This document shows, piece after piece, positions 1-17,688 of a stretch of 37,942 bases of DNA. The notes beneath the pieces were generated by a model. The model saw only the letters and a list, made by a program, of their open reading frames with translations. It was not told the origin of the DNA and did no database searches. The position numbers and the translations under genes are program-made. The first letter of the stretch is position 1, and every line of letters starts with the position of its first letter. The stretch lies in IMG/VR virus record IMGVR_UViG_3300025137_000106, positions 1-37,942 of that record; one strand, 5' to 3'. The DNA is from a virus.

Positions 1-146
1 AAATTAAATGGCAAAATAAAGTTCATGAGCAAATAGTTGGGATATCTACAAAAGGGGCATTACCAATGGAAGAAGAATGGTGTTTATATCATCCTAAAAC
101 AATAGGAAGACAAGAAACACAAAATAACTTTTATGACACGATATGA
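1..146 (+). CDS. C-terminal end of a probable glycosyltransferase (5' partial)
   Basis: An open frame runs from the window edge (first full codon at base 3) to a TGA at 144-146, giving about 47 residues that end in ...IGRQETQNNFYDTI. The stop overlaps the start of the next gene as ATGA, the same coupling used through this gene train. The tail, with an aromatic/His/Pro stretch followed by a KTIGRQ-type helix, resembles the C-termini of family 2 glycosyltransferases in phage glycan clusters, but the catalytic domain lies outside the window. The assignment rests mainly on context and is tentative; that it is coding is much more certain. Confidence 0.5.
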   Translation, partial: IKWQNKVHEQIVGISTKGALPMEEEWCLYHPKTIGRQETQNNFYDTI

Positions 147-1042
147 TTTTTTGGAGAATAGTAGATAATAAAGTTTACGTAGTAAATGAAACAAATAAAT
201 TAGGTTTTGAAGAATCTGAAGGGTTAAGAATCCCCGACGAATATTTAGAGCAACAAGAATTTGTAATAATGAGAACCTGCTTTGGTATAGGTGATTGGGG
301 TATTTTAACAGCAATGCCCCGTTTACTTAAACAAAAATACCCTAATTGTAAAATATATTTACCTTCAGTTAATCTTTTAGAAGAATTATTTGGTAATATA
401 CAAAGGGGATCTAATGCCCCACAAAGTTGGGATTCCCCCTTTGAAACATGTTTAAGTGTGTTTAATAATAACCCTTACATAAATGGATACAAAGATAAAA
501 TAGAAGGAGAAATATTTCATGACCATTATAGAATATATGATGATAACAACTTAGCTGTACCCTTAGTAGAACAAATATTAAAATTCTGGCAATTTGAAAA
601 AAATGAATATCAAGATTCTCAACCTGATTTATATTTTTCTAAAGAAGAAGAAGAATTAGGTAACATAATTATTAAAGAACATGTAGGAGATAATGAATTT
701 GGCTCACTATTAATATCAAATAGATATGATTTTACTCAAGATAAGTTAATATGTGATTTATTAAAAGAAAACCCACTACCTTATTTTTACTTTACCCCAA
801 AACCAATAAACAAAACAAATTTTAGTTTTATTAATAAAGCTTTAGACTTAAGACACATTTCAATTAGAATTCAATTGTACATTAAATCTAAAGCTAAAAT
901 TAACATAAGTAACCAATGTGGTGTAAGTGATATGATAGCTAGATATTCAATTTCACATGTATTACAAAGACAATTCCCCCACAAACATAACTTTATAAGA
1001 AATGTTAATTATATAAATAATAAATTAAATAGCTATGAATAA
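143..1042 (+). CDS. GT-B glycosyltransferase, heptosyltransferase (GT9)-like
   Basis: 299 aa. Near residues 43-65 it has a GIGDWG loop followed by a helix and a KQKYPNCKIYLPS strand, the pattern of the N-terminal Rossmann domain of ADP-heptose:LPS heptosyltransferases and related GT9 proteins. The C-terminal part (about 240-285) has the SKAKINISNQCGVSDMIA segment, like the GT-B motif in which a Ser/Gly-rich loop binds the donor nucleotide. The likely role is transfer of a sugar from a nucleotide donor to a growing glycan in the cytoplasm. The start overlaps the preceding stop by 4 nt and the end overlaps the next gene by 8 nt. No signal peptide or membrane segment is visible. Donor and acceptor cannot be told from sequence. 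Confidence 0.6.
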   Translation: MIFWRIVDNKVYVVNETNKLGFEESEGLRIPDEYLEQQEFVIMRTCFGIGDWGILTAMPRLLKQKYPNCKIYLPSVNLLEELFGNIQRGSNAPQSWDSPFETCLSVFNNNPYINGYKDKIEGEIFHDHYRIYDDNNLAVPLVEQILKFWQFEKNEYQDSQPDLYFSKEEEELGNIIIKEHVGDNEFGSLLISNRYDFTQDKLICDLLKENPLPYFYFTPKPINKTNFSFINKALDLRHISIRIQLYIKSKAKINISNQCGVSDMIARYSISHVLQRQFPHKHNFIRNVNYINNKLNSYE

Positions 1043-3179
1043 AAAAGTTATATATACTTCAGTATTTGGAGATAATTATTTTTTACATGATCCTGAAGTA
1101 AAATTAGAAGGGTTTGATTTTATTTGTTTTACAGACAATCCCTCCTATAAATCAGATGTGTGGGATATTAAATTAACTACAAAAATATATGATGGGGTTA
1201 GAGATTCTAAAAAACCTAAAATACTACCTCATAGATACTTAAAAGACTATGATGTTAGTATATGGATAGATGGAGATATAAAAATTACCTCAGATATAAC
1301 TACATTAATATATGATCATTTAAAAGCCAGTAACTATGCAGCATTCAACCATGAGTTATGTGGTATATCTACAGGAAATTTAAATAGAAGAAATTGTGTT
1401 TACGATGAAGCCGCTTTTATTAAGTGGTTAGGGGATAATCATCCTCAAAAACATTATAAAGATAATTTAAATATAATAAATGATCAAATAAAAAGGTATA
1501 AACTAGATGGATATCCTTCTAAAAATGGATTAACTCGAAATACTATTCTTATAAGAAAACATAACGAACCGGATGTTATAAAAACAATGGAAGATTGGTG
1601 GAATGAGGTAAAATATGGTAGTAAAAGAGATCAATTAAGTTTTAATTATACTGCGTGGAAAAATAATTTTGAATTTACACACATTGAATATGATATAGAT
1701 AATAATCCTTGGTTTAAATTAATGAAAAAATGGAGACAACAACAAAGTAAAAAATTAAAAACTCCTAAATACCAACCAATTAATTTAGAATATTTTTTAA
1801 ATATGGAATTAGCTGAAGGTGGTGGTGGTAAAGAAATAATAAAACAAGATGGTTCCCTAAAAACAATAAAGGATATAATTAATTATTTCTCCTCTCCTTC
1901 TAATTTAGAATATGTTAAAAATCAATTAAAGCCAGAAAATTGGCAATATTATAACTGTATGATGGCTGAATTTAGACATAATGTGGGGGATCATCATGAT
2001 TTAGGTTGGGAAAATATGACTGAACATTATTATAATGATCTTAAACCTATGACAGATTCTGATATAGAAAAATTCTTAAAAGATAATCCTGTTGAATTTG
2101 ATAATGGGTATATTAGACATAATTACCATAGAGCGTGTGCTATGATTGGTAGACTGATTAGCGGTAAGCCATATATACCATTTTATATGAAAACATCACA
2201 AATATATTCTGAACCTAGAAAACGTGATGGTAAGCATAGAATTAAACCATTAACTAATAAAATTAAATTATTAGAAAAAATGGATAAAATAGGAATAAAT
2301 AGAGATGATTATTGTTTAACTCAAAGTTCTATTTTAAGTATAATGGGTATCAGAGATAATGATGATTTAGATATCATTATTTCTAGTAAACTAAGAGATA
2401 AAAATATACAATTCCCCCCAGGTGTAGATGTATTTGATGCTAATAGGGGAAAATTTAATTATTTTGGAGCTAAAGGAGATGATGATATTTTAAAAAACTA
2501 TTGTATTAAAATTGATGGTTATAATTTTTTAGAACCTAGATTTTATTTTGCACGAAAAAACAGATCAACCGAAAGAGATATATCAGATTGGAAAGCAATA
2601 GAATTATTTTTTAATAATAATCATAAAGGATACCCTTTTAATTTTAATTTTTATAAATGGGGAGTAAATTATGTTAATAAAGTACAACTACAGGATTTAA
2701 GCACTAATAATTTAAAAACTATTATAAATAAATATGATAGAATAGTAGATGGTATTAACCACGGAAGAAATGTTTTTTACGATGAAAAACACAAAAGTTA
2801 TATAAAAATATTTAATCCAAAATATTGTAGATTGAGTAATTTTAAGGAAGCCTTAAATTCGGGATTTTTAGTGGGTTTATGTCCAGCACTAACTGATTTA
2901 ATTTATGATGGAAAAAATTTAGTAGGATATATTTGTAAAGAAGGATCTCACCCACAAAGTATCCCCCAAGATTTTTTAACTACAATATTAAGAAACTGTA
3001 AAAAATGGAATAAAATATATTATGATATAGTACCTCAAAATATAATTAAATTACCTAATGGAGAATACAGTTTAATTGATTTAGAAAGTGTTTATGGTTT
3101 AGATGAATTAGATTTATTACCCAAACATAATGCACAAATTAAACCTACAAATCTTTTAGAATTAATTAATAGAATATGA
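1035..3179 (+). CDS. Multidomain protein: DUF616/TOD1-like glycosyltransferase, nucleotidyltransferase-like and kinase-like domains
   Basis: 714 aa, the largest protein in the window. Residues 1-230 resemble the DUF616/TOD1-like glycosyltransferase fold: an opening KVIYTSVFGDNY strand, FICFTDNP, and a WIDGDIKI segment whose DGD can serve as the metal-binding DxD. A middle part (about 300-390) has many His/Trp/Tyr residues and an NYHRACAMIGRL helix of unknown role. Around 425-450, SILSIMGIRDNDDLDIIIS matches the G...DxD pattern of nucleotidyltransferase-fold domains. The C-terminus (about 560-714) looks like a protein-kinase/APH fold, with DIVPQNII near 663 (catalytic Asp plus Asn) and IDLES near 680 (in place of DFG/DxD). 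Such a fusion could activate and transfer a sugar or sugar-phosphate in one chain. That is inference; the domain boundaries are estimates. Confidence 0.55.
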   Translation: MNKKVIYTSVFGDNYFLHDPEVKLEGFDFICFTDNPSYKSDVWDIKLTTKIYDGVRDSKKPKILPHRYLKDYDVSIWIDGDIKITSDITTLIYDHLKASNYAAFNHELCGISTGNLNRRNCVYDEAAFIKWLGDNHPQKHYKDNLNIINDQIKRYKLDGYPSKNGLTRNTILIRKHNEPDVIKTMEDWWNEVKYGSKRDQLSFNYTAWKNNFEFTHIEYDIDNNPWFKLMKKWRQQQSKKLKTPKYQPINLEYFLNMELAEGGGGKEIIKQDGSLKTIKDIINYFSSPSNLEYVKNQLKPENWQYYNCMMAEFRHNVGDHHDLGWENMTEHYYNDLKPMTDSDIEKFLKDNPVEFDNGYIRHNYHRACAMIGRLISGKPYIPFYMKTSQIYSEPRKRDGKHRIKPLTNKIKLLEKMDKIGINRDDYCLTQSSILSIMGIRDNDDLDIIISSKLRDKNIQFPPGVDVFDANRGKFNYFGAKGDDDILKNYCIKIDGYNFLEPRFYFARKNRSTERDISDWKAIELFFNNNHKGYPFNFNFYKWGVNYVNKVQLQDLSTNNLKTIINKYDRIVDGINHGRNVFYDEKHKSYIKIFNPKYCRLSNFKEALNSGFLVGLCPALTDLIYDGKNLVGYICKEGSHPQSIPQDFLTTILRNCKKWNKIYYDIVPQNIIKLPNGEYSLIDLESVYGLDELDLLPKHNAQIKPTNLLELINRI

Positions 3180-3940
3180 ATATAATTTTTATACCAAACA
3201 TAAACACAGGAAACGACAGAAATACCCCTTACCATTATTCTGTTAAAAGTTGGCAAAAATGGTCAGAACAATATGATGATGTAAAAGTTATAGAATGGGA
3301 TGAACCTATTATGGATCCCAATGAATTTAAAATAACATTACAACGTTATTGGGTTCATGACATATTAAAACATAATGAAGTAGAATATGAACAAGTATTA
3401 ATAGTTGATGCTGACACTATTATACACCCAGATTGTCCTAATTTTTTTAATGAAACAGAAGGTAAATTTGGAGTAGTAGTTAATAATGGGTGTTATGAGT
3501 GGACAACTAGAAGTATTAAACAATGGGGAGACAATTTATTTCCTAATGAACCTCAAGTTAAACCATGGAAATATTTTAATGGTGGTTTTCAAATAACAAG
3601 TAAAAAACACATTCCCTTTTACACTAAAGTTCAAGAATATTATACTGCTAATATAATCAAAATAAACCAATTAAATGAACAAATAAAGGCAGGAACCGAC
3701 CAAACTATTATAAATTATTTGACTCAACAAAATTCTGTTAATACAATATATATGCCTGAGGCTTATAATCTTCAAGATTTATTTCGAAAAAATCTTCTAC
3801 ATATTCCTGGACATTCTTGGTTCCCCGATGAATTAAGGTTTTTAGAAGCAGGGTGGATCTATCATTTTAATGCTATACCCCCCAATAATAGACATGTAGA
3901 TTATTGGATGGAAAGAACATATAAAGAATTATATAAATGA
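3176..3940 (+). CDS. GT-A glycosyltransferase with DxD motif
   Basis: 254 aa. It opens with a short strand (IIFIPNI). Near residue 83 it has QVLIVDADTIIHPD, the hydrophobic strand followed by DxD that binds the metal and nucleotide-sugar in GT-A enzymes. Further on, YFNGGFQITSKKH fits the acceptor-side 'FNxGf' motif of GT8-like transferases. The family is therefore probably GT8-like. ATGA-type overlaps couple it to both neighbours, so it is translated together with the other glycan genes. There is no signal peptide, pointing to cytoplasmic action. The transferred sugar is unknown. Confidence 0.6.
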   Translation: MNIIFIPNINTGNDRNTPYHYSVKSWQKWSEQYDDVKVIEWDEPIMDPNEFKITLQRYWVHDILKHNEVEYEQVLIVDADTIIHPDCPNFFNETEGKFGVVVNNGCYEWTTRSIKQWGDNLFPNEPQVKPWKYFNGGFQITSKKHIPFYTKVQEYYTANIIKINQLNEQIKAGTDQTIINYLTQQNSVNTIYMPEAYNLQDLFRKNLLHIPGHSWFPDELRFLEAGWIYHFNAIPPNNRHVDYWMERTYKELYK

Positions 3941-4851
3941 AAATAGCATTTTTTACAGAGGGAAATTACCAAGGCAAAGTATCTAGAGATAACCCTAATA
4001 TGCGAACAGATTTAGCATGGGTATGTTCACTAGAAGCAGACCATTGGAATATAAACCAACCACCCAACCAACAATATGATTTAGGAATTGTTATTATACC
4101 AAAGAAAAACCCACAATTTAATTTAAATAAAATAAAACAATATTGTAATAAAACAGCTGTAATGCAAGAGGGCCCTAATTGGTTTTGGCAGGATTATCCC
4201 CTAAATCAACAAATATGGTATTTTAATACTATACAAGAAGCTGATTTTATGTTTGTACACAATGAGTCAGATAAAAGATATTATGAAGGTTTGACAGGTA
4301 AAGAATGTAAAATTTTACCTAGCTTAATAATTGAAGATTCTATTAAAGATTTACCCCGGGTAGAAAGAAATAATATAATGATTGGAGGTAATTTTTGTAG
4401 CTGGTATGGTGGCTTTGATTCATATATAACAGCACAAGAAGCAGATTGTCCTATTTATATTCCCAGTATGGGTAGAAAAATTGAAGGTGAAGAACAAATG
4501 CCTAACTTAAACCATTTATCTTACATGAGTTGGGTAGAATGGATTAAAACGCTTAATAAATTTAAGTATGGTGTTCATATGATGCGTACACACGCTGCGG
4601 GTACATTCGCTTTAAATTGCGCTTATTTAGGCATTCCTTGTATTGGTTATGAGGGATTAGACACACAAGAAAAATGCCATCCAGATTTAACAGTTAAGTT
4701 AGGGGATTTGGCTACTGCAAAAGAAAAACTTACAATGTTGAAAACAGATGCAAATTTTTATACCGAATGTTCCCAAATAGCAAAAGACAATTATATAAAA
4801 TATAACGAACAAAACTTTTTAAATAGATGGAAAAAATATACTCAAAAATAA
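3937..4851 (+). CDS. GT-B-like glycosyltransferase
   Basis: 304 aa. The protein has two Rossmann-like halves: an N-terminal MKIAFFTEG strand and a C-terminal half in which HMMRTHAAGTFALNCAYLGIP (about 212-232) resembles the donor-binding loop of GT-B (GT1/GT4-like) enzymes, where a small-residue turn is followed by a helix and a Pro. It starts inside the ATGA overlap with the upstream glycosyltransferase and its end overlaps the cupin gene by 25 nt. Membership in a named GT family cannot be decided by eye. A non-catalytic GT-B-fold protein is possible, but the context of adjacent GT genes favours an active transferase. Confidence 0.5.
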   Translation: MKIAFFTEGNYQGKVSRDNPNMRTDLAWVCSLEADHWNINQPPNQQYDLGIVIIPKKNPQFNLNKIKQYCNKTAVMQEGPNWFWQDYPLNQQIWYFNTIQEADFMFVHNESDKRYYEGLTGKECKILPSLIIEDSIKDLPRVERNNIMIGGNFCSWYGGFDSYITAQEADCPIYIPSMGRKIEGEEQMPNLNHLSYMSWVEWIKTLNKFKYGVHMMRTHAAGTFALNCAYLGIPCIGYEGLDTQEKCHPDLTVKLGDLATAKEKLTMLKTDANFYTECSQIAKDNYIKYNEQNFLNRWKKYTQK

Positions 4852-5240
4852 AACCAAATAAGTTATTACATGTTATAAATAGATTATCAGAAATAGAAAG
4901 CAGAACGGAAGTTATACCTGAAGATAATTTTATACAATGTGCTACTTTAAAAATGGAAAAAGGTAAGACATTCCCTCCCCATAAACATATTACAAAAGAT
5001 AGACATTATCCTGAACAAATAGCCCAAGAATCTTGGGTAGTGATTAAAGGAAAAGTTAAATGTATATTTTATGATATAGATGATAACATTATAGCAACCC
5101 CTATACTAGAAGTAGGAGATGCAAGCTATACATTATATGGTGGACACACGTATGAAATATTAGAAGAAGATACAATTGTATATGAATATAAAACTGGTCC
5201 TTATGAGGGGCAAAAATTAGATAAAACTTTTATAAAATGA
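4827..5240 (+). CDS. Cupin-domain protein (RmlC-like fold)
   Basis: 137 aa. The cupin core is visible: PHKH near residue 52, then QESWVVIKGKVKCIFYD with the typical 'E..vl.G' second strand, LEVGDASYTLYGGHTYEI as the G-D turn and second histidine, and EYKTGPYEG at the end. Cupins of this size in sugar clusters often act as epimerases, isomerases or sugar-binding modules. The start lies 25 nt inside the upstream gene; no later Met gives a complete domain, so this start is likely. It ends in an ATGA overlap with the carbamoyltransferase. The substrate is unknown. Confidence 0.65.
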   Translation: MEKIYSKIKPNKLLHVINRLSEIESRTEVIPEDNFIQCATLKMEKGKTFPPHKHITKDRHYPEQIAQESWVVIKGKVKCIFYDIDDNIIATPILEVGDASYTLYGGHTYEILEEDTIVYEYKTGPYEGQKLDKTFIK

Positions 5241-6880
5241 AAACAGACAAGATTTTAGGATTTCAATCAGGCCATGATGTAAGTTATTGTTTATTAGAAA
5301 ATGGTATACCTATTATACATGAAGAATTAGAAAGATTTATTAGGGAAAAAGAACCCTTAGGAGATGGATTAGAAATGGCTTTGCAAAGATTACCCGACTT
5401 AAATAATATTAAGTATTTTACTCACGGAAATCCAGGGGGTAGAGGGGGGAAATATCAACCCCAATGCGGAAAAAAAGAAGCTGAGGACATAATGAAATCA
5501 ATTTTAAAAGAAAATGGTGGAGAGTATTTTGTTATAGGACATCACCAAGCTCATGCAGCTAATGCTTTCTTTTCTAGTAATTATGATGAAGCTTTAATTA
5601 TAACTATAGATGGTAGTGGCACTGAAAAAACAGATCCTAACGATATAACTAATGAACCAGACAATTCAAATACATTTTCAACAGCATTTACTTTTTGGGA
5701 AGGTAAAGGAAATAAAATAAAACCAATAAAAAGAATCCCAATGGGTGAATTAACCTTGGGTTCACCTTGGAGGGTTTACACTAGGGATTTATTTGGCCTA
5801 TCAGATGGTCATCCCCATGGTTTTGCGGGGGGAACAGTAATGGCTATGGCCTCTGCGGGAATCCCTAAATATTGGGAAGACTTTTATGATGCCTTTTTAA
5901 AGGGGGGAGGTGGACCTAGTGCCCCTACTTATGCTAATGTTAAAAAATATAAACCTTTAATAGAAAAAAGTGAAAAAGAGAAATTTGATGTAGCGGCATC
6001 TATTCAACTAGCAACTGAAAAGGTAGCTTATAAAATAATAAAACCTTTTATAGATAAATATAACCCCAAAAATATATGCTTTGCAGGCGGGGTAGTATTA
6101 AATTCTGTAATGATGGGTAAAATGTATGATTGGTTTGGGGTTAAAAATATGTATGTTTGTCCCGTACCTTATGATGGTGGTCTTTCAATAGGAAGTGCCC
6201 AATTTGTATGGCACCAAATACTTGATAAACCTAGGGTAAAGTGGGATGATGTTAGTCCTACTTATTTAGGAACATCCTATAATGAAGAAGAAGTCTTAGA
6301 AGCCTTAAAACACCCCTCTATTAACTATACTAAAACAACAGATGAACAAGTTTTAGATTTATTAAATCAACAAAATATAATATCTATATTTAATGAAGGG
6401 GCCGAATCAGGAAGAAGAGCATTAGGCAATAGGAGTATCATTACAGATCCAAGAAGTCCTAAAATGAAAGATCTAATCAATGATAAAGTTAAACATAGAC
6501 AATGGTTTAGACCTTTTGCCCCCTCTATTTTAAAAGAAGACGTTAAAGATTGGTTTGTAAGAGACATAGAAAGTCCCTATATGAGTTTTGTATTACCTTT
6601 TAAAGAAGAAGCAAAAGATAAAGTCCCAGCAGTAGTCCATTTAGATGGAACTGGTAGATTACAAACAGTTACAGAAAAAAGTAATAAATGGTATTATAAC
6701 TTCATTAAAAAATGGAAGAAAAAAACAGGAGTCCCTATTTTATTAAATACAAGTTTTAATGATAGAGAACCTATAGTAGAAACTCCAGAACATGCTATTA
6801 ATTGTTTTCTTGGGACTAATATTGATTATTTATATTTTCCCCAATATAATATTTTAGTGTCTAAAACTAATAAATTATAA
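5237..6880 (+). CDS. Carbamoyltransferase, NodU/TobZ/CmcH family
   Basis: 547 aa, close to the family's usual 550-600. The N-terminal Kae1-like domain has ILGFQSGHDVS, GHHQAHAANAF (residues 101-111, metal-binding HHxAH), IDGSGTE and the DGHPHG and FAGGVVLN segments that bind the adenylate. The C-terminal YrdC-like part has SGRRALGNRSI near 391 and LLNTSFNDREPI near 500, both diagnostic of O-carbamoyltransferases. The enzyme uses carbamoyl phosphate and ATP, via carbamoyl-AMP, to carbamoylate a hydroxyl, here presumably on a sugar or nucleotide-sugar made by the surrounding genes. It sits between a cupin and a tiny membrane protein in the same gene train. All key motifs appear intact. Confidence 0.93.
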   Translation: MKTDKILGFQSGHDVSYCLLENGIPIIHEELERFIREKEPLGDGLEMALQRLPDLNNIKYFTHGNPGGRGGKYQPQCGKKEAEDIMKSILKENGGEYFVIGHHQAHAANAFFSSNYDEALIITIDGSGTEKTDPNDITNEPDNSNTFSTAFTFWEGKGNKIKPIKRIPMGELTLGSPWRVYTRDLFGLSDGHPHGFAGGTVMAMASAGIPKYWEDFYDAFLKGGGGPSAPTYANVKKYKPLIEKSEKEKFDVAASIQLATEKVAYKIIKPFIDKYNPKNICFAGGVVLNSVMMGKMYDWFGVKNMYVCPVPYDGGLSIGSAQFVWHQILDKPRVKWDDVSPTYLGTSYNEEEVLEALKHPSINYTKTTDEQVLDLLNQQNIISIFNEGAESGRRALGNRSIITDPRSPKMKDLINDKVKHRQWFRPFAPSILKEDVKDWFVRDIESPYMSFVLPFKEEAKDKVPAVVHLDGTGRLQTVTEKSNKWYYNFIKKWKKKTGVPILLNTSFNDREPIVETPEHAINCFLGTNIDYLYFPQYNILVSKTNKL

Positions 6881-6884
6881 TAAT

Positions 6885-7802: not shown

Positions 7803-7813
7803 AACAATTAATT

Positions 7814-8338: not shown

Positions 8339-8349
8339 AAAATTAAAAA

Positions 8350-8985: not shown

Positions 8986-8986
8986 C

Positions 8987-9334: not shown

Positions 9335-10859
9335 GGTATTAATAACAACAAGTGGTATAGGAAGTAGATTAGGTAAATTAACTGATTTTACTAATAAGTC
9401 TTTAGTAAGAATAGGCGATAAACCTGCTATCTCCCATATTATAGAATATTATCCTGAAGATACTTCATTTGTAATTACATTAGGACATTTTGGATCTTAT
9501 GTAAAAGAATTTTTAAAGTTAACATATCCCCATAAACATTTTACCTTTATTAAGGTAGACAACTTTAAAGATCAAGGTAGTAGTTTAGGACATTCTATAT
9601 TACAAGCTAAAAATGAACTACAATGTCCCTTTATATTTCATGCTAGTGATACTATTTTAACTAAAGAAGATATAATACCTAATTTAGAACATAATTGGTG
9701 TGCTGGGGCCTATAAAGAAGAAACATCACAATATAGAACTATAAGGACAAACAATGGTTGGGTAGATACTATCACAGAAAAGGGAGAAATCAATTTTGAT
9801 TATCCTTATATAGGATTATGTGGGATAAAAGACTATAAATTGTTTTGGGGCAAATTAGAAACATTACCACACAACAATTCACTTTCAGATGTTCACGTAA
9901 TAAATGAAATGCTAAATAAGGTTACTTTTAATTTTCACAAGATAAATAACTGGTTAGACATAGGAAATACCACAGAATTAAATAAAACAAGAGAATATTT
10001 TGGTAGTAGTATAAAAGTATTAGATAAAAGTAATGAATCTATATACTTTTTTGATAATTTTGTAGTAAAATTCTTTGCAGATAAAAACATAAATAAAAAT
10101 AGAGTAAAAAGAGCTTCAATGTTAAAGGGATTAGTCCCCGATATGCTAGCATATACTCCTAATTTTTATAAATATAAAAAAGCAGAAGGTAATTTGTTTG
10201 CAAAATCTGTAAATGAAAATACATTTAATTCCTTTTTAAAATGGACTAAAGATAATTTATGGAAACATAAACCCGTAAATAATTTTTCTAAAAAATGTTT
10301 TAACTTTTATGTAACAAAAACAGATAAAAGAATAAATCAATACTTAAAAGAAAAACCAGATACATCTGAAATTATAAATGGTGAGTTAATACCACCTATA
10401 AAAGATATATTATCTCAAATAGATAGGGAATGGTTATGTGATGGTGTACCCGTACAGTTCCATGGTGATTTTATTTTGGATAATGTAATTGAAACACAAG
10501 ATAATTTTTGTTTAATAGATTGGAGGCAAGATTTTGCTGGTGATTTAGAAGTTGGAGACATATATTATGATTTAGCTAAATTAAACCATAATTTAATGGT
10601 TAACCATGATATAGTAGATAAAAAATTATATGATTCATCACCTAAAAATTGTCATATATTATGTAATAGTACTTTGCTTAGGTGTAAAGATTTATTACAT
10701 AATTTTATTATAGAAAATGGGTATGACCTTAAAAAGGTAAAAGTATTAAGTTCAATTATTTGGATTAATATGGCTCCTCTACATGAATATCCCTTTAATA
10801 AATTTTTATTTAATTTTGGAAAATATAACTTATATAAAACACTAAATGATATATCCTAA
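9321..10859 (+). CDS. Fusion of sugar/choline nucleotidyltransferase (LicC-like) and APH/choline kinase-like domains
   Basis: 512 aa. The N-terminal part (about 1-230) has VLITTSGIGSRLGKLTDFTNKSLVRIGDKP, matching the G-x-G-(T/S)-R-L...K signature of NTP-transferases such as LicC, with Ala of the usual opening replaced by Thr. Near 90-115 a FHASDTIL segment gives the metal-binding Asp. The C-terminal part (about 240-510) is an aminoglycoside/choline kinase fold: VQFHGDFILDNVI near residue 378 is the catalytic HGDxxxxN loop and CLIDWRQD near 396 the metal-binding IDW. A kinase joined to a nucleotidyltransferase could phosphorylate a small alcohol or sugar and then attach CMP or another nucleotide. 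It overlaps both neighbours by 14 nt. The substrate is unknown. Confidence 0.75.
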   Translation: MVDYKVLITTSGIGSRLGKLTDFTNKSLVRIGDKPAISHIIEYYPEDTSFVITLGHFGSYVKEFLKLTYPHKHFTFIKVDNFKDQGSSLGHSILQAKNELQCPFIFHASDTILTKEDIIPNLEHNWCAGAYKEETSQYRTIRTNNGWVDTITEKGEINFDYPYIGLCGIKDYKLFWGKLETLPHNNSLSDVHVINEMLNKVTFNFHKINNWLDIGNTTELNKTREYFGSSIKVLDKSNESIYFFDNFVVKFFADKNINKNRVKRASMLKGLVPDMLAYTPNFYKYKKAEGNLFAKSVNENTFNSFLKWTKDNLWKHKPVNNFSKKCFNFYVTKTDKRINQYLKEKPDTSEIINGELIPPIKDILSQIDREWLCDGVPVQFHGDFILDNVIETQDNFCLIDWRQDFAGDLEVGDIYYDLAKLNHNLMVNHDIVDKKLYDSSPKNCHILCNSTLLRCKDLLHNFIIENGYDLKKVKVLSSIIWINMAPLHEYPFNKFLFNFGKYNLYKTLNDIS

Positions 10860-11790
10860 ATATTACATAGGACCTATGTCTCAAAACATAGTAGATTCTA
10901 TTATTGAGTTTTGTAATGAAACTAACAACAAAATAGGCTTAATCCCTTCTAGAAGACAAGTAGAGTGGGATGGGGGTTATGTTAACAAATGGACAACAGA
11001 AACCTTTAGCAAATATGCTAATAAGTTATTTTTAGTAAGAGACCATTCGGGACCTAGACAAGGCTACACAGACGATGATGGATATAAGTCTTTAAAAGAA
11101 GATTGTAAATATCTAGATATGATCCACATAGATCCATGGAAAAAATACTCACTATACGAAGATGGGTTAAAATGGACTATTGATATGATTCAATTTTGTT
11201 ATACTGAAAATCCTAATATTGAATTTGAAGTAGGAACTGAAGAAGCTATAAGAAAATTTGAACCTGAAGAATTAGATATGTTGTTAAATGATCTTCATGT
11301 TAGATTAGAAGAAAAGATATTCGCTCAAATTAAGTATGCTGTGATTCAATCAGGCACATCCCTTAAAGAAACCACAAACACGGGGGAATATGATAGAGAC
11401 AGACTCACATCAATGATTCAAGTAGTTAAAAACCACAATTTATTATCAAAAGAACATAATGGTGATTATATACCTGTGGGTCTTATAAAAGAAAAAATGA
11501 ATTTAGGTTTAGATGCAATAAATATAGCACCGGAGTTTGGCCTTATAGAAACCCTTTCATACATAAAGGAGGGGATTAATATAGATAAATTTTGGAAAAT
11601 ATGTTATGATTCTAAAAGATGGGAAAAGTGGGTAAATTCTGATTTTGATCCTTATACCCAAAAACTAGATCTAATTAAAATTTGTGGTCATTATGTTTTA
11701 TCACATCCTGATTTTTTAAAAATTAAACCTAATATTAATGGTATTATTAAGTTAAACATCAAAAATAAATTAAATGAACTATATAGATAA
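10846..11790 (+). CDS. GatZ/KbaZ-like class II aldolase subunit family protein
   Basis: 314 aa. Several blocks follow tagatose-bisphosphate aldolase subunit GatZ/KbaZ: SRRQVEWDGGYVNKWTTETF (compare SNQVNQ.GGYTGMTPADF), LVRDHSGPRQ (compare LGGDHLGPN), DMIHIDP (compare KIHLDAS), FEVGTEEA (compare YVIGTEVP), AVIQSGTSL..YDRDRL (compare VVQPG..YDR) and AINIAPEFGLIETLSY (compare LKVGPALTFALREAL). The conserved Asp-His and the phosphate-type loop are present. The protein is about a quarter shorter than GatZ (about 420). GatZ is regarded as a non-catalytic partner of GatY, but no GatY homologue is visible here. In sugar clusters such barrels may be stand-alone aldolases for unusual sugars. Confidence 0.65.
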   Translation: MIYPKYYIGPMSQNIVDSIIEFCNETNNKIGLIPSRRQVEWDGGYVNKWTTETFSKYANKLFLVRDHSGPRQGYTDDDGYKSLKEDCKYLDMIHIDPWKKYSLYEDGLKWTIDMIQFCYTENPNIEFEVGTEEAIRKFEPEELDMLLNDLHVRLEEKIFAQIKYAVIQSGTSLKETTNTGEYDRDRLTSMIQVVKNHNLLSKEHNGDYIPVGLIKEKMNLGLDAINIAPEFGLIETLSYIKEGINIDKFWKICYDSKRWEKWVNSDFDPYTQKLDLIKICGHYVLSHPDFLKIKPNINGIIKLNIKNKLNELYR

Positions 11791-12145
11791 AAGACCCATT
11801 ACTATATTCTGTGATATTGATGGTACATTAGTAACACATACTAAACCTACAGATGCTCAATTACCCACTCATAAATTAGATTTATTAGAAGGCACAACAG
11901 ATAAAATTCTAGAATGGGATAGATTAGGATATAATATTATCCTTACTACAGGTAGAAAAGAAAGCCTTAGAAATATTACAGAAATCCAATTATCCCAAGT
12001 TGGAATTATTTATGATCAACTTATTATGGGAATAGGAGGGGGAAAACGCTATTTAATTAACGATAGAAAACCTAATGGATCTGAAGATTATGCTATTGCC
12101 ATTAATCTAATAAGAAACGAAGGAATAAAACTATTACAAATATGA
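11774..12145 (+). CDS. HAD-superfamily phosphatase
   Basis: 123 aa. FCDIDGTLV (residues 12-20) is HAD motif I with both Asp residues. IILTTGR (about 57-63) is motif II. KRYLINDRKPNGSED (about 90-105) is the motif III/IV region with Lys and Asp. It is a small, capless HAD and so probably acts on a phosphorylated sugar or another small molecule. Lying directly after the aldolase-like gene (17-nt overlap) and close to a kinase-nucleotidyltransferase fusion, it would fit a dephosphorylation step in precursor synthesis. The start overlaps the upstream stop. Confidence 0.8.
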   Translation: MNYIDKRPITIFCDIDGTLVTHTKPTDAQLPTHKLDLLEGTTDKILEWDRLGYNIILTTGRKESLRNITEIQLSQVGIIYDQLIMGIGGGKRYLINDRKPNGSEDYAIAINLIRNEGIKLLQI

Positions 12146-12900
12146 AGATAGCGTTATGTTTAATGGGGGTAGTAGGTGCTGCAGAAAAGAAATATGGAGT
12201 GGGACATCCTATAGATCCTAGAATAGGACATTACTTTTATAAAAAACACATATTTGATTGTAATGATGTTGATGTTTTTATTCATAGTTGGAGTACTGAT
12301 TTTGAAAAAGAATTTATAGAATTATATAACCCAAAAAAATATTTAATAGAAAAACAAATCAATTTTAATCAAAATGATGTAAGAACAAATAGTGTGGCTA
12401 GTAGGTGGTATTCTACAGCAACTAGCATTAATTTAAAAAGTTCTTATGAAAAGGAAAATAATATAGAATATGATTTTGTAATGGTAGGAAGATTTGATTG
12501 TATGTTTAATAAGGATATAATATTTTCTCATTTTAATAAAAATAATTTCTATATTTCTCATGTAAATGAATGTTATAATAAACCATGTAAATGTAATATA
12601 GGAGATATGTATTCTGATCTTTGGGCATTTGGAAATTCTAAAGATATAAATACTTTTGGATCCCTATATGAACAATGGGGCGAATATGGAATAAATAACC
12701 CCCATAAAGAACTTAAACACCATATCCAAAAAACAGGATTACAACAAAAATTAAAACATGTTTTTTATGAAAGGTATGATCATTACCCTATAAGAACCCA
12801 ATTTATTAACTGTCATTATAATCCTAGTATAGATTTAAATATTAATAACTTAAAAACTTTTAAATGGGGAGAAGGTTATGCCAAAAGAACAAAAAAATGA
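12142..12900 (+). CDS. Putative glycosyltransferase-like protein of unknown family
   Basis: 252 aa. The order of segments is MKIALCLMGVVGA, VDVFIHSWSTDF, RWYSTATSINLK, YDFVMVGRFDCMF and YSDLWAFGNSKD. The pattern of a 'vfiHSW' strand, a Ser-rich Tyr helix and an 'RFDxxF' turn recurs in uncharacterised transferase-like proteins of polysaccharide and phage glycan clusters, where the RFD can stand for a metal/nucleotide-binding acidic turn. No definite DxD is seen, so the activity is inferred from the fold pattern and the neighbours. It overlaps the preceding HAD gene and the following DegT gene by ATGA junctions. Confidence 0.45.
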   Translation: MKIALCLMGVVGAAEKKYGVGHPIDPRIGHYFYKKHIFDCNDVDVFIHSWSTDFEKEFIELYNPKKYLIEKQINFNQNDVRTNSVASRWYSTATSINLKSSYEKENNIEYDFVMVGRFDCMFNKDIIFSHFNKNNFYISHVNECYNKPCKCNIGDMYSDLWAFGNSKDINTFGSLYEQWGEYGINNPHKELKHHIQKTGLQQKLKHVFYERYDHYPIRTQFINCHYNPSIDLNINNLKTFKWGEGYAKRTKK

Positions 12901-13529
12901 GTTTTAGTAAAGTAACAGAATTTGAAAATAAAATAGCAGAATTTTTTGGTGCACCATATGCAGTAGCAGTAGATTGTTGCACACACGGAGTTGAATTATG
13001 TTTAAGGCATCAAAATATTTCTTATATTAATGTACCTAAAAGGACATATATTTCTATCCCTTTTTTGGCTAAAAAATTAAATATACAGTTAAATTGGAAA
13101 AATGAAAATTGGAAAGATTATTATTATTTAACTAAACATTTAACACCTATTATAGATGCAGCTGTTTTATGGAAAAAAAATAGTTATATACCTGGAACCT
13201 TTATGTGTTTAAGTTTTCAATTTAGAAAACATTTGGCTTTAGGTAGAGGAGGTATTATATTATGTGATAATAAAGATGATGCCTTCGAACTTAAAAAAAT
13301 GAGCTATGATGGTAGACATCCCTACATACCTTGGAGAGAACAAGATATTGAAACTGTAGGTTACCATTATTATATGACACCCGAAACTGCTGAGTTAGGT
13401 TTAAAAAAATTACCCAATGCAATAAAAGAAAAACCAGTACAATGGACAATTAATGATTGGCCTGATGTATCAAAGATGAAAGTATTTAATAAAAGTGAAG
13501 GAATAGATCCTTATTTACAAACAAAATAA
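12897..13529 (+). CDS. Short DegT/DnrJ/EryC1/StrS-family aminotransferase
   Basis: The start is placed at the ATG at 12897, which forms an ATGA overlap with the upstream stop. An earlier in-frame ATG at 12864 would add 11 Lys/Arg-rich residues inside the neighbour and is less likely. The protein is 210 aa. FENKIAEFFGAPYAVAVDCCTHGVEL opens the fold, IIDAAV gives the Asp (D87) that contacts the pyridoxal nitrogen, and SFQFRKHLALGRGG gives the Schiff-base Lys (K111) and the glycine turn. Family members are usually about 370 aa, so most of the small C-terminal domain is missing. The next gene makes GDP-4-keto-6-deoxymannose, so a GDP-perosamine-type 4-amination is a natural guess. Confidence 0.7.
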   Translation: MSFSKVTEFENKIAEFFGAPYAVAVDCCTHGVELCLRHQNISYINVPKRTYISIPFLAKKLNIQLNWKNENWKDYYYLTKHLTPIIDAAVLWKKNSYIPGTFMCLSFQFRKHLALGRGGIILCDNKDDAFELKKMSYDGRHPYIPWREQDIETVGYHYYMTPETAELGLKKLPNAIKEKPVQWTINDWPDVSKMKVFNKSEGIDPYLQTK

Positions 13530-13532
13530 CTT

Positions 13533-14510
13533 ATGAAGAAAAAAGCATTTATAACAGGCATAGGAGGGCAAGATGGTAGTTATCTAGCTGAATATTTAGT
13601 AGAACTAGGGTACGAAGTACATGGTATAGTTAGAAGAAATTCAACTCCTGAAAACCAAGATCAAAGACTATCTAATGTAGAAGATAAAATTACAACTTAT
13701 TATGGTGATTTATTAGATCAAGGGGGAATTGAAAAATTACTAGATACAATTCAACCAGATGAAATTTATAATATGGCGGCACAGTCCCACGTAAGGATTA
13801 GTTTTGATATACCTCAATTCACAGTACAAACAAATGCATTAGGTGTTCTCAATATGCTAGAAGCTTATAGAAGGGCTTGTCCTAAAGCTAAATTTTACCA
13901 AGCAAGTAGTTCTGAAATGTTTGGTTTATCTGTTGAAGATGATAATTTTCAAAGAGAAACTACAGTAATGAATCCAGTATCACCTTATGGTTGTTCTAAA
14001 GTATTTGGTTATAACATTGTAAGGAATTACAGACGTGCATATAAATTACATGCTACAAACGGTATATTATTTAATCATGAATCACCTAGAAGAGGATCTA
14101 ATTTTGTAACAAATAAAGTAGCTAAAGCAGCTGCTAAAATAAAATTAGGTTTACAAGATAAATTAGAATTAGGTAATATGGATTCTTATAGGGATTGGGG
14201 TCATTCATATGATTATGTAAGAGCAATGCATTTAATGATGCAACACGATAAACCTGGTGATTGGGTAGTATCAACTATGGAAACACACTCAGTAAGAGAA
14301 ATGTGTGATGTAGTATTTAGTCATTTAGGTTTAAATTATAAGGACTATATTACACAAAACCCTAAATTTATGAGACCTGAAGAACTACCTTATTTAAGGG
14401 GGGATTCAACTAAAATTAGAACAGAATTAGGATGGAAACCAACATATACATTTAAAGATATGATGGAAGAGATGGTAGACCATTGGTTAAAAATTTATAA
14501 AAATGATTAG
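13533..14510 (+). CDS. gmd: GDP-mannose 4,6-dehydratase
   Basis: 325 aa. The Rossmann motif ITGIGGQDGSYLAEYL (residues 7-22) is diagnostic for Gmd. SSSEMFG (about 125-131) supplies the catalytic Ser and Glu, and PVSPYGCSKVFG (about 148-159) supplies YxxxK. FNHESPRRG, MDSYRDWGHSYDYV and the PEELPYLRGDSTK stretch near the end are also Gmd-typical. The enzyme converts GDP-mannose to GDP-4-keto-6-deoxymannose in the cytoplasm, the branch point to fucose, perosamine and rhamnose. No GDP-fucose synthase follows; the adjacent DegT gene instead suggests amination. Length is slightly below the usual 340-370. Confidence 0.95.
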   Translation: MKKKAFITGIGGQDGSYLAEYLVELGYEVHGIVRRNSTPENQDQRLSNVEDKITTYYGDLLDQGGIEKLLDTIQPDEIYNMAAQSHVRISFDIPQFTVQTNALGVLNMLEAYRRACPKAKFYQASSSEMFGLSVEDDNFQRETTVMNPVSPYGCSKVFGYNIVRNYRRAYKLHATNGILFNHESPRRGSNFVTNKVAKAAAKIKLGLQDKLELGNMDSYRDWGHSYDYVRAMHLMMQHDKPGDWVVSTMETHSVREMCDVVFSHLGLNYKDYITQNPKFMRPEELPYLRGDSTKIRTELGWKPTYTFKDMMEEMVDHWLKIYKND

Positions 14511-14564
14511 TATAGTTCAAAATTTTATATGTACTAAAGATGAAAGATTAAAAGTTCTTGAACA
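14500..14564 (+). repeat. 65-bp direct repeat, copy 1 (5' end of paralogue A)
   Basis: Bases 14500-14564 are identical to 15722-15786. They cover the last 3 nt before the ATG and the first 62 nt of two paralogous genes, and identity stops abruptly in the codon after Leu-Glu. The two copies are 1222 nt apart and enclose most of one glycosyltransferase-like gene and the methyltransferase. Perfect DNA identity, including third positions, next to clearly diverged remainders points to recent exchange or duplication. Confidence 0.9.
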
Positions 14565-15183
14565 AGAAACACCTAAAATGGGTAAAATATTTAAGGATCA
14601 TGAATTTATTATTAATTATGGTTCTAAAATAAATTTAGATAATGTACATTCTATATATAAAGATAATATTAGTAAATTAAATTTTTATAATAATTTGGAA
14701 CCCAACTGGGGTTTAATAACTTTATCATTATTAAAAGAGGTAAAAACCCCATATACCCTTATTTTTTGTGAAGATTTTACTTATAATATGGATTATAATT
14801 ATTGGCAAGATATAGTAAAAGAAGTAATCCAAAATGATATATCATACATGCCCATAGGTAGATTATGGAAATATACTAAAAAAGAATATTGGAGGGGGTA
14901 TGAAAATGGGGATTTATTATGGAAATATAAAGCATCTAATTCCCCAGGTTCCTCTTTATCTGTAGATGCATTATACAAAACAGATTTATTAATACAAAAG
15001 TTAGAAAAATTGATGAATTATTATCCTAGAAGATTTCCTTTAAACCTCCCACACCATTATGAAGATATATTCCTTGAACCTAATGGTGTATTATCATGGG
15101 GTGATAATATAATGTGTGCTGTGCCTAAAAAAGAAATTTTAATTCATACACAAACTGAAACTGAAACCTTTTTAAATAAATAA
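14503..15183 (+). CDS. Putative glycosyltransferase, paralogue A
   Basis: 226 aa. It starts in the last 8 nt of gmd. It begins MISIVQNFICTKDERLKVLE, identical in both protein and DNA to the start of the gene at 15725. The two then diverge while keeping matching blocks: FIINY, SIYKDNI, FYNNLEP, TLSLL.EVKTPY and CEDF/CEDM. The last (here FCEDFTYN, about residues 87-94) could be the metal-binding acidic motif of a GT-A-like transferase. The later half has SSLSVDALYKTD, shared as SLDALYKTE in the paralogue. It is probably a phage glycan glycosyltransferase, but no characterised family is recognised. Confidence 0.5.
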   Translation: MISIVQNFICTKDERLKVLEQETPKMGKIFKDHEFIINYGSKINLDNVHSIYKDNISKLNFYNNLEPNWGLITLSLLKEVKTPYTLIFCEDFTYNMDYNYWQDIVKEVIQNDISYMPIGRLWKYTKKEYWRGYENGDLLWKYKASNSPGSSLSVDALYKTDLLIQKLEKLMNYYPRRFPLNLPHHYEDIFLEPNGVLSWGDNIMCAVPKKEILIHTQTETETFLNK

Positions 15184-15188
15184 AAATT

Positions 15189-15728
15189 ATGAAAAAAATA
15201 AATTTAGGATGTGGGTGGAGAAATTTTGGTAAAGATTGGATCCATATAGATGGAGGTAATTATTCCCACTTAGACTCAAAAGATATACTTATTTTACCTT
15301 ATGAAGATAATTCTATTGATTTAATATATGCTAGTCATGTTATTGAATATTTTGATAGAGAAGAAATATTAGATATTTTAAATAAATGGAAAGCTAAATT
15401 AAAACCTGGGGGAGTATTAAGACTAGCTGTGCCTAATTTTCAAGCTATGGCTAAATTATATATAGAAGATAATATACCTTTAGATAGTTTTTTAGGTCCT
15501 TTATATGGGAAAATGAAAATGAGTAACGAAACAATATACCATAAAACTACTTATGATTTTAAAGAATTAAAGTCAATATTAAATAAGTGTGGTTTTTCAG
15601 ATATAGGTTACTATGACTGGAGAGAAACAGAACATAGTGATTTTGATGACCATTCACAAGCATATATCCCCCATATGAATAAAGAAAAAGGAACGCTAAT
15701 TAGTTTAAATATAAAAGCAATAAAATGA
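15189..15728 (+). CDS. SAM-dependent methyltransferase (Methyltransf_11-like)
   Basis: 179 aa. KINLGCGWRNFGKDWIHIDG (residues 3-22) is motif I: an L-G-C-G glycine loop followed by the acidic residue that binds the SAM ribose. ILPYEDNSIDLIYASHVIEYF (about 35-55) holds motif II, with SH.IEY in the position often filled by S-x-VLEH. LKPGGVLRLAVPNF (about 72-86) is motif III. This pattern is common in class I methyltransferases acting on sugars. It could O-methylate a sugar of the glycan. It sits between the two paralogous transferase genes that share the 65-bp repeat. Confidence 0.85.
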   Translation: MKKINLGCGWRNFGKDWIHIDGGNYSHLDSKDILILPYEDNSIDLIYASHVIEYFDREEILDILNKWKAKLKPGGVLRLAVPNFQAMAKLYIEDNIPLDSFLGPLYGKMKMSNETIYHKTTYDFKELKSILNKCGFSDIGYYDWRETEHSDFDDHSQAYIPHMNKEKGTLISLNIKAIK

Positions 15729-15786
15729 TTAGTATAGTTCAAAATTTTATATGTACTAAAGATGAAAGATTAAAAGTTCTTGAACA
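15722..15786 (+). repeat. 65-bp direct repeat, copy 2 (5' end of paralogue B)
   Basis: Perfect copy of 14500-14564, including the ATG at 15725 and the next 59 nt. It begins within the ATGA junction with the methyltransferase gene. Homologous recombination between the two copies would remove the methyltransferase and fuse the two paralogues in frame. Confidence 0.9.
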
Positions 15787-16444
15787 TAGTGTTATATCAT
15801 TAGCTAATACTTTTCCAAATTCTGAATTTATTATAAACTATAATTCAACAATAAATTTAGATAAGGTATATTCAATATATAAAAATAATATAAAAAATTT
15901 AAAATTTTATAATAATTTAGAACCAGAATGGGCTAATGTAACTTTATCATTAAGTAATGAAGTAAAAACTCCTTATTTAATATGTTTATGTGAAGATATG
16001 GTTGTAAAGAGTACTAAGAAAAAAGTAGATGCATGTATTAAAGAATTTATTGGCAGTGATTTTGATTATATGTTATTATGTAAATTACATAAATATTTAG
16101 AACCCCAATTTATTAATGGATATACTCCTTATAATCAAAATAAATCACCTGGATATAAAAAATTAAATAATGGTTATTTTTATTTGGGTAAACATGCCCC
16201 CCATAAAAGACTTAGCTTAGATGCTTTATATAAAACAGAATGGTGGAAAGAAAGACTTTCTGAATTTATTTTAAACCACCATAAATGTACCCATGATATT
16301 CCTATTAGAGATATAAGAAAGCCTAATTTTTATGAAGGATATTATGATTTTAATAACGGAATGGCTAGATTTTCAGATCTAAAATGTTATATACCTGATG
16401 AGATTATTATGCTAGAAATTGAAAATGTAAAACAAAATAGATGA
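15725..16444 (+). CDS. Putative glycosyltransferase, paralogue B
   Basis: 239 aa. It shares its first 20 codons exactly with the gene at 14503, and further blocks more loosely (FIINYNSTINLDKVYSIY, FYNNLEPEW, TLSLSNEVKTPY, CLCEDMVVK). The CED near residue 91 is a possible metal-binding site. The middle part (FILNHHKCTHDIPIRDIRKPNF) is rich in His and Arg and differs from paralogue A. Both ends overlap the neighbouring genes by 4 nt. A sugar transferase role is inferred from the context of the glycan train and the paralogy; direct motif support is limited. Confidence 0.5.
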   Translation: MISIVQNFICTKDERLKVLEHSVISLANTFPNSEFIINYNSTINLDKVYSIYKNNIKNLKFYNNLEPEWANVTLSLSNEVKTPYLICLCEDMVVKSTKKKVDACIKEFIGSDFDYMLLCKLHKYLEPQFINGYTPYNQNKSPGYKKLNNGYFYLGKHAPHKRLSLDALYKTEWWKERLSEFILNHHKCTHDIPIRDIRKPNFYEGYYDFNNGMARFSDLKCYIPDEIIMLEIENVKQNR

Positions 16445-17688
16445 AAATAAGTTTAATACAACCAGGCAGAAATAATCTTAAGTACCTTAAATGGTCTTAC
16501 AATTCAATAAGAAAAAATCAAGGCAAACATGAAGTCGAAATTTGTGTTGCTGATGACTTTTCAAACGATGGAACACTTGAATGGTGTATCCAAATGGCTG
16601 AAATAGATGTAAATTTTAAGTTTATCACAAACCAATCAGGTAAAAGATTAGGCCATACAATTTTATACGACAGATTAATTAATGAAGTTGCTACAAGTGA
16701 CATTTGTATGATTTACCATGCAGACATGTATTTGTGTCCTAATGCGTTAGATGAAATTGAAAAACACATTAAAGAAAAAACAATTGTATCACTTACTAGA
16801 ATTGAACCACCATTACATCCAGATGGACCCGAAAAAATATTATTAGACTGTGGTATTGAACCTGAAGAGTTTGATGAAGACATGTTACTTACTCAAGTAG
16901 AAAGATTAAAGACAAAAGATAAAACAACAGAAGGTATATTTGCACCTTGGGCATTTTATAAATCAGATTTTCAAGAAATAGGTGGGCATGATCCTATATT
17001 TGCCCCTCAATCAAAAGAAGACACAGACATATTTAATCGTTTTCATTTAAATGGTTGTAAGTTTATTCAAACCTGGGAAGGATTTGTTTATCATATGACT
17101 TGTAGAGGCTCAAGATTTGCAGATGGGGCAACACGAAACCCAAATGGCGAAGTGTTTATGAAGAATAGAGAAACAGATGAATGGTTAAAACAAAATCAAA
17201 AATCAACTAAAGAATTCTTACGTAAATGGGGCCATTTCTGTAAACATGATACTCTAATGAAACCAATTGTTCCACCAAAGTATAATATAGGTTTTATACT
17301 TAAAAATTGTACTCCTCAGTTATTAGAGACACTTGAACCTTGGTGTAGTACAATTTATGTAGATGAAGGAAATACCCCTACAATAATTAAAAATTATATT
17401 AATTTAGAACAACCTAATACATCATTTGATTTACAAGAAAAAATAAAACCTTATGATAACAAAAAACAAAATGATATTTTAGTTACAATAGATGGTAGTA
17501 AATTCACACAGCAAGATTTTCAAATTATCCAACAACTATCTGAAATACTTGCTAATGATAAACAATTACATGAAGATTTCTTTGTTGAACCCACCCAATT
17601 TACAATAGAAAATTTACAAATAACAATAACAAACTTAAACACATACGAAAAAGACTTAATATGTGTTCGCACAAATTTAATTAATTAA
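16441..17688 (+). CDS. Family 2 glycosyltransferase with extra C-terminal domain
   Basis: 415 aa. The GT2 (GT-A) domain is clear: ISLIQPGRNNLKYLKWSYNSI, EICVADDFSNDGTLEW (residues about 33-48, the nucleotide-binding VxDDxSxDGT motif), and MIYHADMYLCPNALDEIE (near 90), where HAD takes the place of DxD. FAPWAFYKSDFQEIGGHDP (about 165-185) matches the acceptor-loop 'GGxD' of GT2. Residues 275-415 form a second part (YNIGFILKNCTPQLLETLEPW..., DILVTIDGSKFT) of unknown function. It is the last gene of the glycan train; 8 nt later the thermonuclease-like gene begins. Confidence 0.8.
   Translation: MKISLIQPGRNNLKYLKWSYNSIRKNQGKHEVEICVADDFSNDGTLEWCIQMAEIDVNFKFITNQSGKRLGHTILYDRLINEVATSDICMIYHADMYLCPNALDEIEKHIKEKTIVSLTRIEPPLHPDGPEKILLDCGIEPEEFDEDMLLTQVERLKTKDKTTEGIFAPWAFYKSDFQEIGGHDPIFAPQSKEDTDIFNRFHLNGCKFIQTWEGFVYHMTCRGSRFADGATRNPNGEVFMKNRETDEWLKQNQKSTKEFLRKWGHFCKHDTLMKPIVPPKYNIGFILKNCTPQLLETLEPWCSTIYVDEGNTPTIIKNYINLEQPNTSFDLQEKIKPYDNKKQNDILVTIDGSKFTQQDFQIIQQLSEILANDKQLHEDFFVEPTQFTIENLQITITNLNTYEKDLICVRTNLIN

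Follow-up and report, generated by a model that had tools for sequence, protein, structure and literature searches.

The DNA treated here, a virus record from IMG/VR (IMGVR_UViG_3300025137_000106), comprises 37,942 bases and is called the window below; its positions 1..17688, on the + strand, are taken up by genes for making a glycan. The explanation that we consider the best, with a probability of about 0.5, is that these genes (numbered w01 to w21) form an island whose slot is also found in the Flavobacterium phage immuto, and that they would produce a methylated, carbamoylated and sulfated glycan, with w07, w08 and w10 as the sulfation path. The most valuable lead is w07, a candidate new sulfate-activating enzyme that was not named in the initial annotation of this DNA: in the bacterial genomes sampled, w07 takes the place of the canonical ATP sulfurylase beside the kinase of adenosine 5′-phosphosulfate (APS).

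This replacement is seen in two phyla. Among 147 genomes of the Flavobacteriales, the order of one w07-bearing genome (L217), an APS kinase is found over the cut-off in 62, and 56 of these possess CysD; the six APS-kinase genomes without CysD are exactly the six with w07 (Fisher 1.6e-8), in all six of them w07 lies some 75–105 bp from the APS kinase, and Sat was found in 0/147. In the Marinimicrobia phylum, where 73 of 120 genomes have a strong APS-kinase match, Sat or CysD is present in 61/67 genomes without w07 versus 0/6 with it (Fisher 5e-6). Caution is needed with both figures, as completeness values are blank for the genomes and w07-bearing members of one clade may be related; because of this possible kinship the Fisher values are no tally of independent events, and the agreement of the two phyla weighs more. 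The thresholds (E <1e-40 for w07, and E <1e-15 for APS kinase and CysD in Marinimicrobia) were set after seeing the lists, and the weaker matches to the w07 profile (E >1e-7; 36/42 Flavobacteriales and 10/16 Marinimicrobia genomes) were counted as other adenylyltransferases solely on their E-values; among those set aside, G253 (318-aa frame) could be a fused w07 relative. A wider check for Sat and CysD covered 50 of the 67 w07 genome loci, and no strong match to either was found in 39 of these 50 genomes.

The gene w07 itself (7030..7380, +) encodes a compact nucleotidyltransferase of the HIGH type, identified through PF01467 (CTP_transf_like), its conserved motifs and its fold, and it is the genome profiles that make it a candidate analogue of ATP sulfurylase. 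Compared with the known ATP sulfurylases Sat and CysDN, it stands in the position of CysD next to the APS kinase, but it is much smaller and matches neither the Sat nor the CysD profile, only CTP_transf_like and adenylyltransferase profiles. Its predicted fold, with a local confidence score (pLDDT) of 81 and an uncertain C-terminal third, is nearest to phosphopantetheine and nicotinamide mononucleotide (NMN) adenylyltransferases and to tRNA synthetases, none of them at E 0.001. A cytidylyltransferase, which was the first reading of w07, is not favoured, as glycerol-3-phosphate cytidylyltransferases come lower in the fold list than the phosphopantetheine and NMN enzymes. Its neighbour w08 (7377..7802, +) is a short APS-kinase-like protein, as had been proposed at the outset, with PF01583 over the cut-off (E 3e-13; 50.6 vs 21.1 bits), the P-loop, DGD and R motifs present, matches to APS kinases in the PDB, and matches to the NCBIfam APS-kinase models that fall below their cut-offs. 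Alignment shows that the stretch separating the RD motif from the YEPP motif, which we take to be the lid, is deleted in the w08 of the window and of another locus (L071) and present in a third (L051), and because this lid segment is missing w08 is filed as APS-kinase-like only.

Members of the w07 family were traced to 80 viral loci and 67 genome loci, of which 140 (80 viral, 60 genomic) have a w07 open reading frame (ORF). In 76/80 viral loci, w07 has a w08-like gene no more than 3 kb away; in the 60 genome loci there is a w08-like gene in 31 (14 of them <175 aa) and a long w07 ORF in 18, one or the other in 49, where a long ORF means one of >220 aa whose kinase domain was checked in only some cases, among them L211, where the ORF contains a full APS kinase. 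As to bacterial neighbours, L217 has in succession a full APS kinase, w07, a CysQ-like protein of the inositol-monophosphatase family and sulfotransferase(s), and a Nitrospiraceae locus (L214) has sulfite/nitrite reductase, a CysH-like protein of the family of 3′-phosphoadenosine 5′-phosphosulfate (PAPS) reductases, and w07. Within 6 kb of w07 in the 60 genome loci, CysQ-like proteins occur in 4 and PAPS-reductase-like proteins in 3. In viruses, w07, w08 and w10 occur together in L071 and L144, and w07, w09 and w10 in L114 and L115; these four loci and the window suggest, short of showing, that w07 and sulfotransferases are linked in phages. A membrane protein with DUF2061 (e.g. L172:4650-4856), a domain that may mark cys operons, was also observed near w07/w08 in 34/80 viral loci and 1/60 genome loci.

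The sulfotransferase w10 (8350..8985, +) is assigned as PAPS-dependent by profile, cofactor residues and fold. It matches PF03567 (Sulfotransfer_2; E 2e-18, 67.8 bits vs a cut-off of 22), and in 12 sequences K38 and G41 are nearly invariant and R87 and S95 invariant, residues that presumably bind PAPS through the 5′ phosphosulfate loop and the 3′ phosphate motif. Its predicted model (pLDDT 86) gave, among the VIA alignments listed, 50/50 with sulfotransferases (Z 7.5–9.6), heparan sulfate 2-O-sulfotransferase being the first among them; Foldseek alone was weak, with no match at E 0.001. Profile and fold searches agree, and so the sulfotransferase proposed in the initial annotation stands. The gene w09 (7814..8338, +), conserved with w07 and w10, is weakly HpcH/HpaI-like (PF03328, E 0.005, below the cut-off) and gave no convincing match to solved structures; it is observed highly conserved beside w07 and w10, recurring with 56% identity in L114 and 76% in L115, and resembles half of a protein of the HpcH/pyruvate-kinase type. 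Among open-licence PMC papers, no paper on viral or phage sulfotransferases and no title on a new type of ATP sulfurylase were found.

If these identities are brought together, the genes at 7030–8985 would serve sulfation, in such a way that w07 would adenylate sulfate to APS, w08, a short form that would still use APS, would convert it to PAPS, and w10 would transfer the sulfonyl group from PAPS to the glycan, with w09 as a companion of this kit. The wider proposition, which we put forward tentatively and at a little under even odds, is that the w07 family could represent a third type of ATP sulfurylase, not orthologous to the known ones, an adenylyltransferase of 115–170 aa from the HIGH superfamily, paired or fused with APS kinase, that would make PAPS in several bacterial phyla and would have been taken up by phages as a portable sulfation kit.

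A number of observations weigh against giving w07 this role. The best NCBIfam profiles for w07 are those of NMN adenylyltransferases, far below their cut-offs (w07 scores 41 bits vs 418 and 36.5 vs 181.2); 75/76 viral w08-like partners are <175 aa, the lidless short form (the lid being checked in the window and L071); L114 and L115 carry w07 and w10, with w08 undetected; and 56/79 viral w07 loci are without a detected sulfotransferase within 9 kb. Among the bacteria, 11 of the 50 w07 genomes keep a canonical enzyme (Sat in 8, CysD in 4, one having both), and six genomes of the Marinimicrobia phylum have APS kinase yet no Sat, CysD or w07, so that absence may reflect genome incompleteness. In Stenotrophomonas phage Bhz60 a fusion of a kinase and a nucleotidyltransferase, relatives of w08 and w07 (L111:5584-6324), adjoins a NADAR gene, a neighbour that might indicate a role in NAD metabolism, and the 12 kb around it hold no annotated glycan gene. 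The adjacency to sulfotransferases, counted after removal of the twin contig described below, depends on the detector: a first count gave a sulfotransferase within 1 kb in 15/79 viral w07 loci vs 1/79 loci around the GDP-mannose 4,6-dehydratase Gmd (Fisher 3e-4) and 0/17 around carbamoyltransferase, one of its detectors having been drawn from a w07 locus and being thus biased toward w07, whereas a sulfotransferase profile built from Gmd loci only gave 7/79 vs 2/79 (p 0.17) within 1 kb and 10/79 vs 10/79 within 6 kb. Because the adjacency weakened with this second detector, our confidence both in the best explanation and in a third type of ATP sulfurylase is lower than it would otherwise be.

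Alternatively, w07 and w08 could activate a substrate other than sulfate, such as NMN/NAD or a small alcohol destined for nucleotide linkage to the glycan, with w10 using the PAPS of the host, and we regard this as a possible, though not the favoured, explanation. The NMN adenylyltransferase profiles, which score best in NCBIfam and in PHROG (395/10255), the phosphopantetheine and NMN enzymes among the fold neighbours, the absence of the lid from phage w08 and of w08 itself from L114 and L115, the lack of a nearby sulfotransferase in most phage w07 loci, and the NADAR neighbour in one phage all speak in this direction; against it, the genomes in which w07 adjoins a full APS kinase are precisely those missing CysD, its bacterial neighbours are CysQ-like, CysH-like and sulfotransferase proteins, and in 5/6 Marinimicrobia-phylum genomes with w07 the short kinase is the only match found to the APS-kinase family.

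The second decoration would be due to w06 (5237..6880, +), an O-carbamoyltransferase of the NodU/TobZ type with both its N domain (PF16861, Carbam_trans_N, E 2e-62) and its C domain (PF02543, Carbam_trans_C, E 3e-17) over the cut-off and with the TobZ motifs aligned; as profile and TobZ alignment agree, this assignment, also made earlier, holds. Homologues of w06 are found in 134/50,697 phage records, mostly cyanophages, and marine T4-like cyanophages and pelagiphages (e.g. S-CAM1, HTVC008M) have full-length NodU-like proteins with 31–34% identity to it, whereas the phage collection that includes them has no match to w10 at E 1e-5. In the first 110 loci a carbamoyltransferase was found in 22 and a detected sulfotransferase in 15, with both only in three twin entries; in the 79 viral w07 loci with the twin dropped, a carbamoyltransferase is present in 6, and a sulfotransferase too in two of these, L114 and L115. 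The latter is nearly colinear with the window (w01–w07, w09, w10 and w12–w17 in order, 32–76% identity, w08 undetected). The initial annotation had called the presence of both decorations unusual, and the pair is indeed uncommon, but carbamoyltransferases by themselves are common in marine phages and the pair recurs in L114 and L115.

As a glycan island the cassette is variable, and it occupies a slot common to immuto-like tailed phages. Glycan islands in phages are already known, and the cyanophage P-SSM2 has a large cluster of lipopolysaccharide (LPS) genes. In Flavobacterium phage vB_FspM_immuto (MW353175, Immutovirus immuto) the slot holds 13 genes between a PD-(D/E)XK nuclease and DnaK-suppressor/HNH genes, 10/13 annotated as glycan-type, the last being a glycosyltransferase 46% identical to w21; next come relatives of w24, w27 and w28, arranged as in the window. 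Upstream, the comparison comes from a 55 kb contig (IMGVR 3300025138_010082) that is 99.95% identical to the window over two stretches (20,975 and 16,877 bases) and reaches further: before w01 this twin encodes a GT2-like protein of 217 aa, a protein of 170 aa and a pair of large glycosyltransferase-like proteins (436 and 487 aa), named by eye, and still further upstream a nuclease-like and a clamp-loader-like gene (by eye) and a GroEL (by search), closest to that of immuto (61%). The likeness to immuto thus comprises the slot, the flanking nuclease, the GT2 glycosyltransferase and the w24, w27 and w28 relatives; what differs is that immuto is without an annotated sulfotransferase, APS kinase or carbamoyltransferase, and that w06–w10 of the window are unmatched in it. 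Two close relatives (L003 and L005) have many window genes in common, yet w07–w10 (7030–8985) are unmatched in both. The gene-order comparison suggested with the initial annotation yields a slot shared with a cultured phage, and adds what was absent from that annotation: this slot, the upstream continuation of the island, and the nucleotidyltransferase-bearing segment that two close relatives are missing. The host would probably be one of the marine Bacteroidota.

That the cassette could instead stem from bacterial contamination, misassembly or decaying genes is very improbable. The window proteins scanned gave no capsid or terminase match, which would suit such an origin, but the frames are open and tightly packed, a second contig is 99.95% identical, phage-type genes and the gene order of immuto are found on both sides, and L115, an independent contig, is nearly colinear; the synteny with an isolated phage largely refutes such an origin.

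In its layout, the cassette has 21 complete ORFs between 143 and 17688 (w01–w21), all co-oriented on the + strand, preceded by the 3′ end of another gene (bases 1–146, complete in the twin) and followed at 17697 by an SNase-like gene, so that of the about 23 co-oriented genes first announced the common orientation is retained and the number becomes about 22 (21 complete and one truncated end). The junctions are between −37 and +11 bp in 19/20 cases, and the sole real gap, of 149 bp (6881–7029), stands directly before w07. Promoter-like sites (118 vs a shuffle mean of 128.7) and terminator-like sites (5 vs 6.1) are not enriched in the cassette, and TATAAATA and a Bacteroidota-type promoter pattern occur there at chance frequency, in agreement with the earlier remark that no promoter or terminator was visible. 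The Pfam curated cut-off is passed by 11/21 proteins (w02, w06, w07, w08, w10, w11, w12, w16, w17, w19 and w21).

With respect to the sugar itself, the ManC-type cupin, Gmd, DegT and methyltransferase first recognised by eye are each backed by a Pfam match: w11 (8987..9334, +) is a cupin of the ManC/MannoseP_isomer type (PF01050, E 2e-28), w16 (12864..13529, +) a short DegT aminotransferase-like protein (PF01041, E 6e-15, with the family length and lysine motif), w17 (13533..14510, +) Gmd (PF16363, GDP_Man_Dehyd, E 1e-117), and w19 (15189..15728, +) an S-adenosylmethionine methyltransferase (PF08241, Methyltransf_11, over the cut-off). With w06 and w10 added, these domain identities support a glycan cassette in a phage in which enzymes of sugar synthesis stand together with those for sulfo, carbamoyl and methyl groups. 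The short DegT is a compact phage family of sugar aminotransferases: w16 has 221 aa against a family median of 199.5, with 72 homologues in 69 loci that recur beside Gmd (≤230 aa in 61/72, lysine motif in 71/72), and the family is present in 62/79 viral Gmd loci, in 54 together with w05 (4827..5240, +), a protein cupin-like by eye, without a Pfam match and detected in 63/79 viral Gmd loci.

Of the at least seven glycosyltransferases initially counted, two have profile support: w02 (1035..3179, +; 714 aa), with a TOD1_MUCI70 domain (PF04765, E 3e-13; phrog_26101, glycosyltransferase), and w21 (16441..17688, +), a GT2 enzyme at the conserved end of the slot (PF00535, Glycos_transf_2, E 5e-9). 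Glycosyltransferase-like by eye are w01 (143..1042, +; GT9-like), which has no match in Pfam or PHROG, nor do its relatives, w03 and w04 (3176..4851, +), which have no profile support, and w18 (14503..15183, +), whose paralogue w20 (15725..16444, +; 42% identity) matches no glycosyltransferase profile. For w01, w03, w04, w15, w18 and w20 no glycosyltransferase match was found in Pfam or PHROG, and nine relatives of the unmatched glycosyltransferase-like proteins likewise have none; w15 (12142..12900, +) is DUF7796-like, with PF25072 below the cut-off here and over it in its relative in L114.

A further set, w11 to w14 (8987–12145), recurs as a unit that is also present in L005 and in Marine virus AG-345-E15, and whose product may be a nucleotide-activated non-sugar group. 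Besides the cupin w11 it includes w12 (9321..10859, +), with an N half like a sugar nucleotidyltransferase (NCBIfam nucleotidyltransferases below the cut-off) and an APH-like kinase C half (PF01636, over the cut-off), w13 (10846..11790, +), possibly like a tagatose-bisphosphate aldolase (GatZ/KbaZ-like by eye, no Pfam match) and with no convincing match among solved structures beyond a weak one in the PDB to KbaY (E 0.03), and w14 (11774..12145, +), like a HAD-type phosphatase (several HAD families, all below the cut-off, and PHROG polynucleotide kinase families). AG-345-E15 (MH319741), a sorted extracellular particle of unknown host (PMC6122165), carries a run of glycan-type genes with relatives of w14, w11, w12 and w13 adjacent (46–59% identity) and a carbamoyltransferase (32%), and in the 37.6 kb read it has no match to w07, w08 or w10. 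Elsewhere in the window we observed a UvdE-type UV endonuclease (28477–29376; PF03851, E 6e-61) and, at 22155–22580, an Hsp20-like protein, the twin encoding GroEL.

As to the destination of the product, Gmd, the short DegT, the ManC-type cupin and w12–w14, together with the transferases, would build a glycan that would be methylated, carbamoylated and sulfated; its attachment would probably take place in the cytoplasm, with virion proteins as the simplest acceptors. Acceptor, host and target (virion or host surface) are inferred. Cytoplasmic attachment is favoured because membrane spans and matched export domains are missing from all the cassette proteins: a simple hydropathy scan found spans in 0/21 proteins, and no flippase, polymerase, ligase or transporter/export family was matched in Pfam among them, the upstream genes of the twin lying outside this profile scan. 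These same results argue against the glycan being placed off the virion, on a host surface (LPS or capsule) remodelled during infection, for example against superinfection, by way of the lipid carriers and export of the host, which appears to us rather unlikely. In its favour, PHROG labels one relative as GtrB-like, of O-antigen conversion, and the enzyme types resemble those of bacterial capsule clusters such as the one with which Cobetia marina KMM 1449 makes its sulfated capsule, where sugar-synthesis, glycosyltransferase, PAPS-synthesis and sulfotransferase genes are found together (PMC11766843). The two differ in that Cobetia obtains APS through CysD/CysN-CysC and possesses export genes (PMC11766843), while in the window there is w07 and no export gene was found.

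In summary, the apparent activation of sulfate beside a sulfotransferase would enable a phage to sulfate glycans with less dependence on the PAPS of its host. If w07 were indeed an ATP sulfurylase, it would fill a hole in the pathway of those marine bacteria that have APS kinase and neither Sat nor CysD, and many genes now called cytidylyltransferase-like or NMN adenylyltransferase-like would be renamed.

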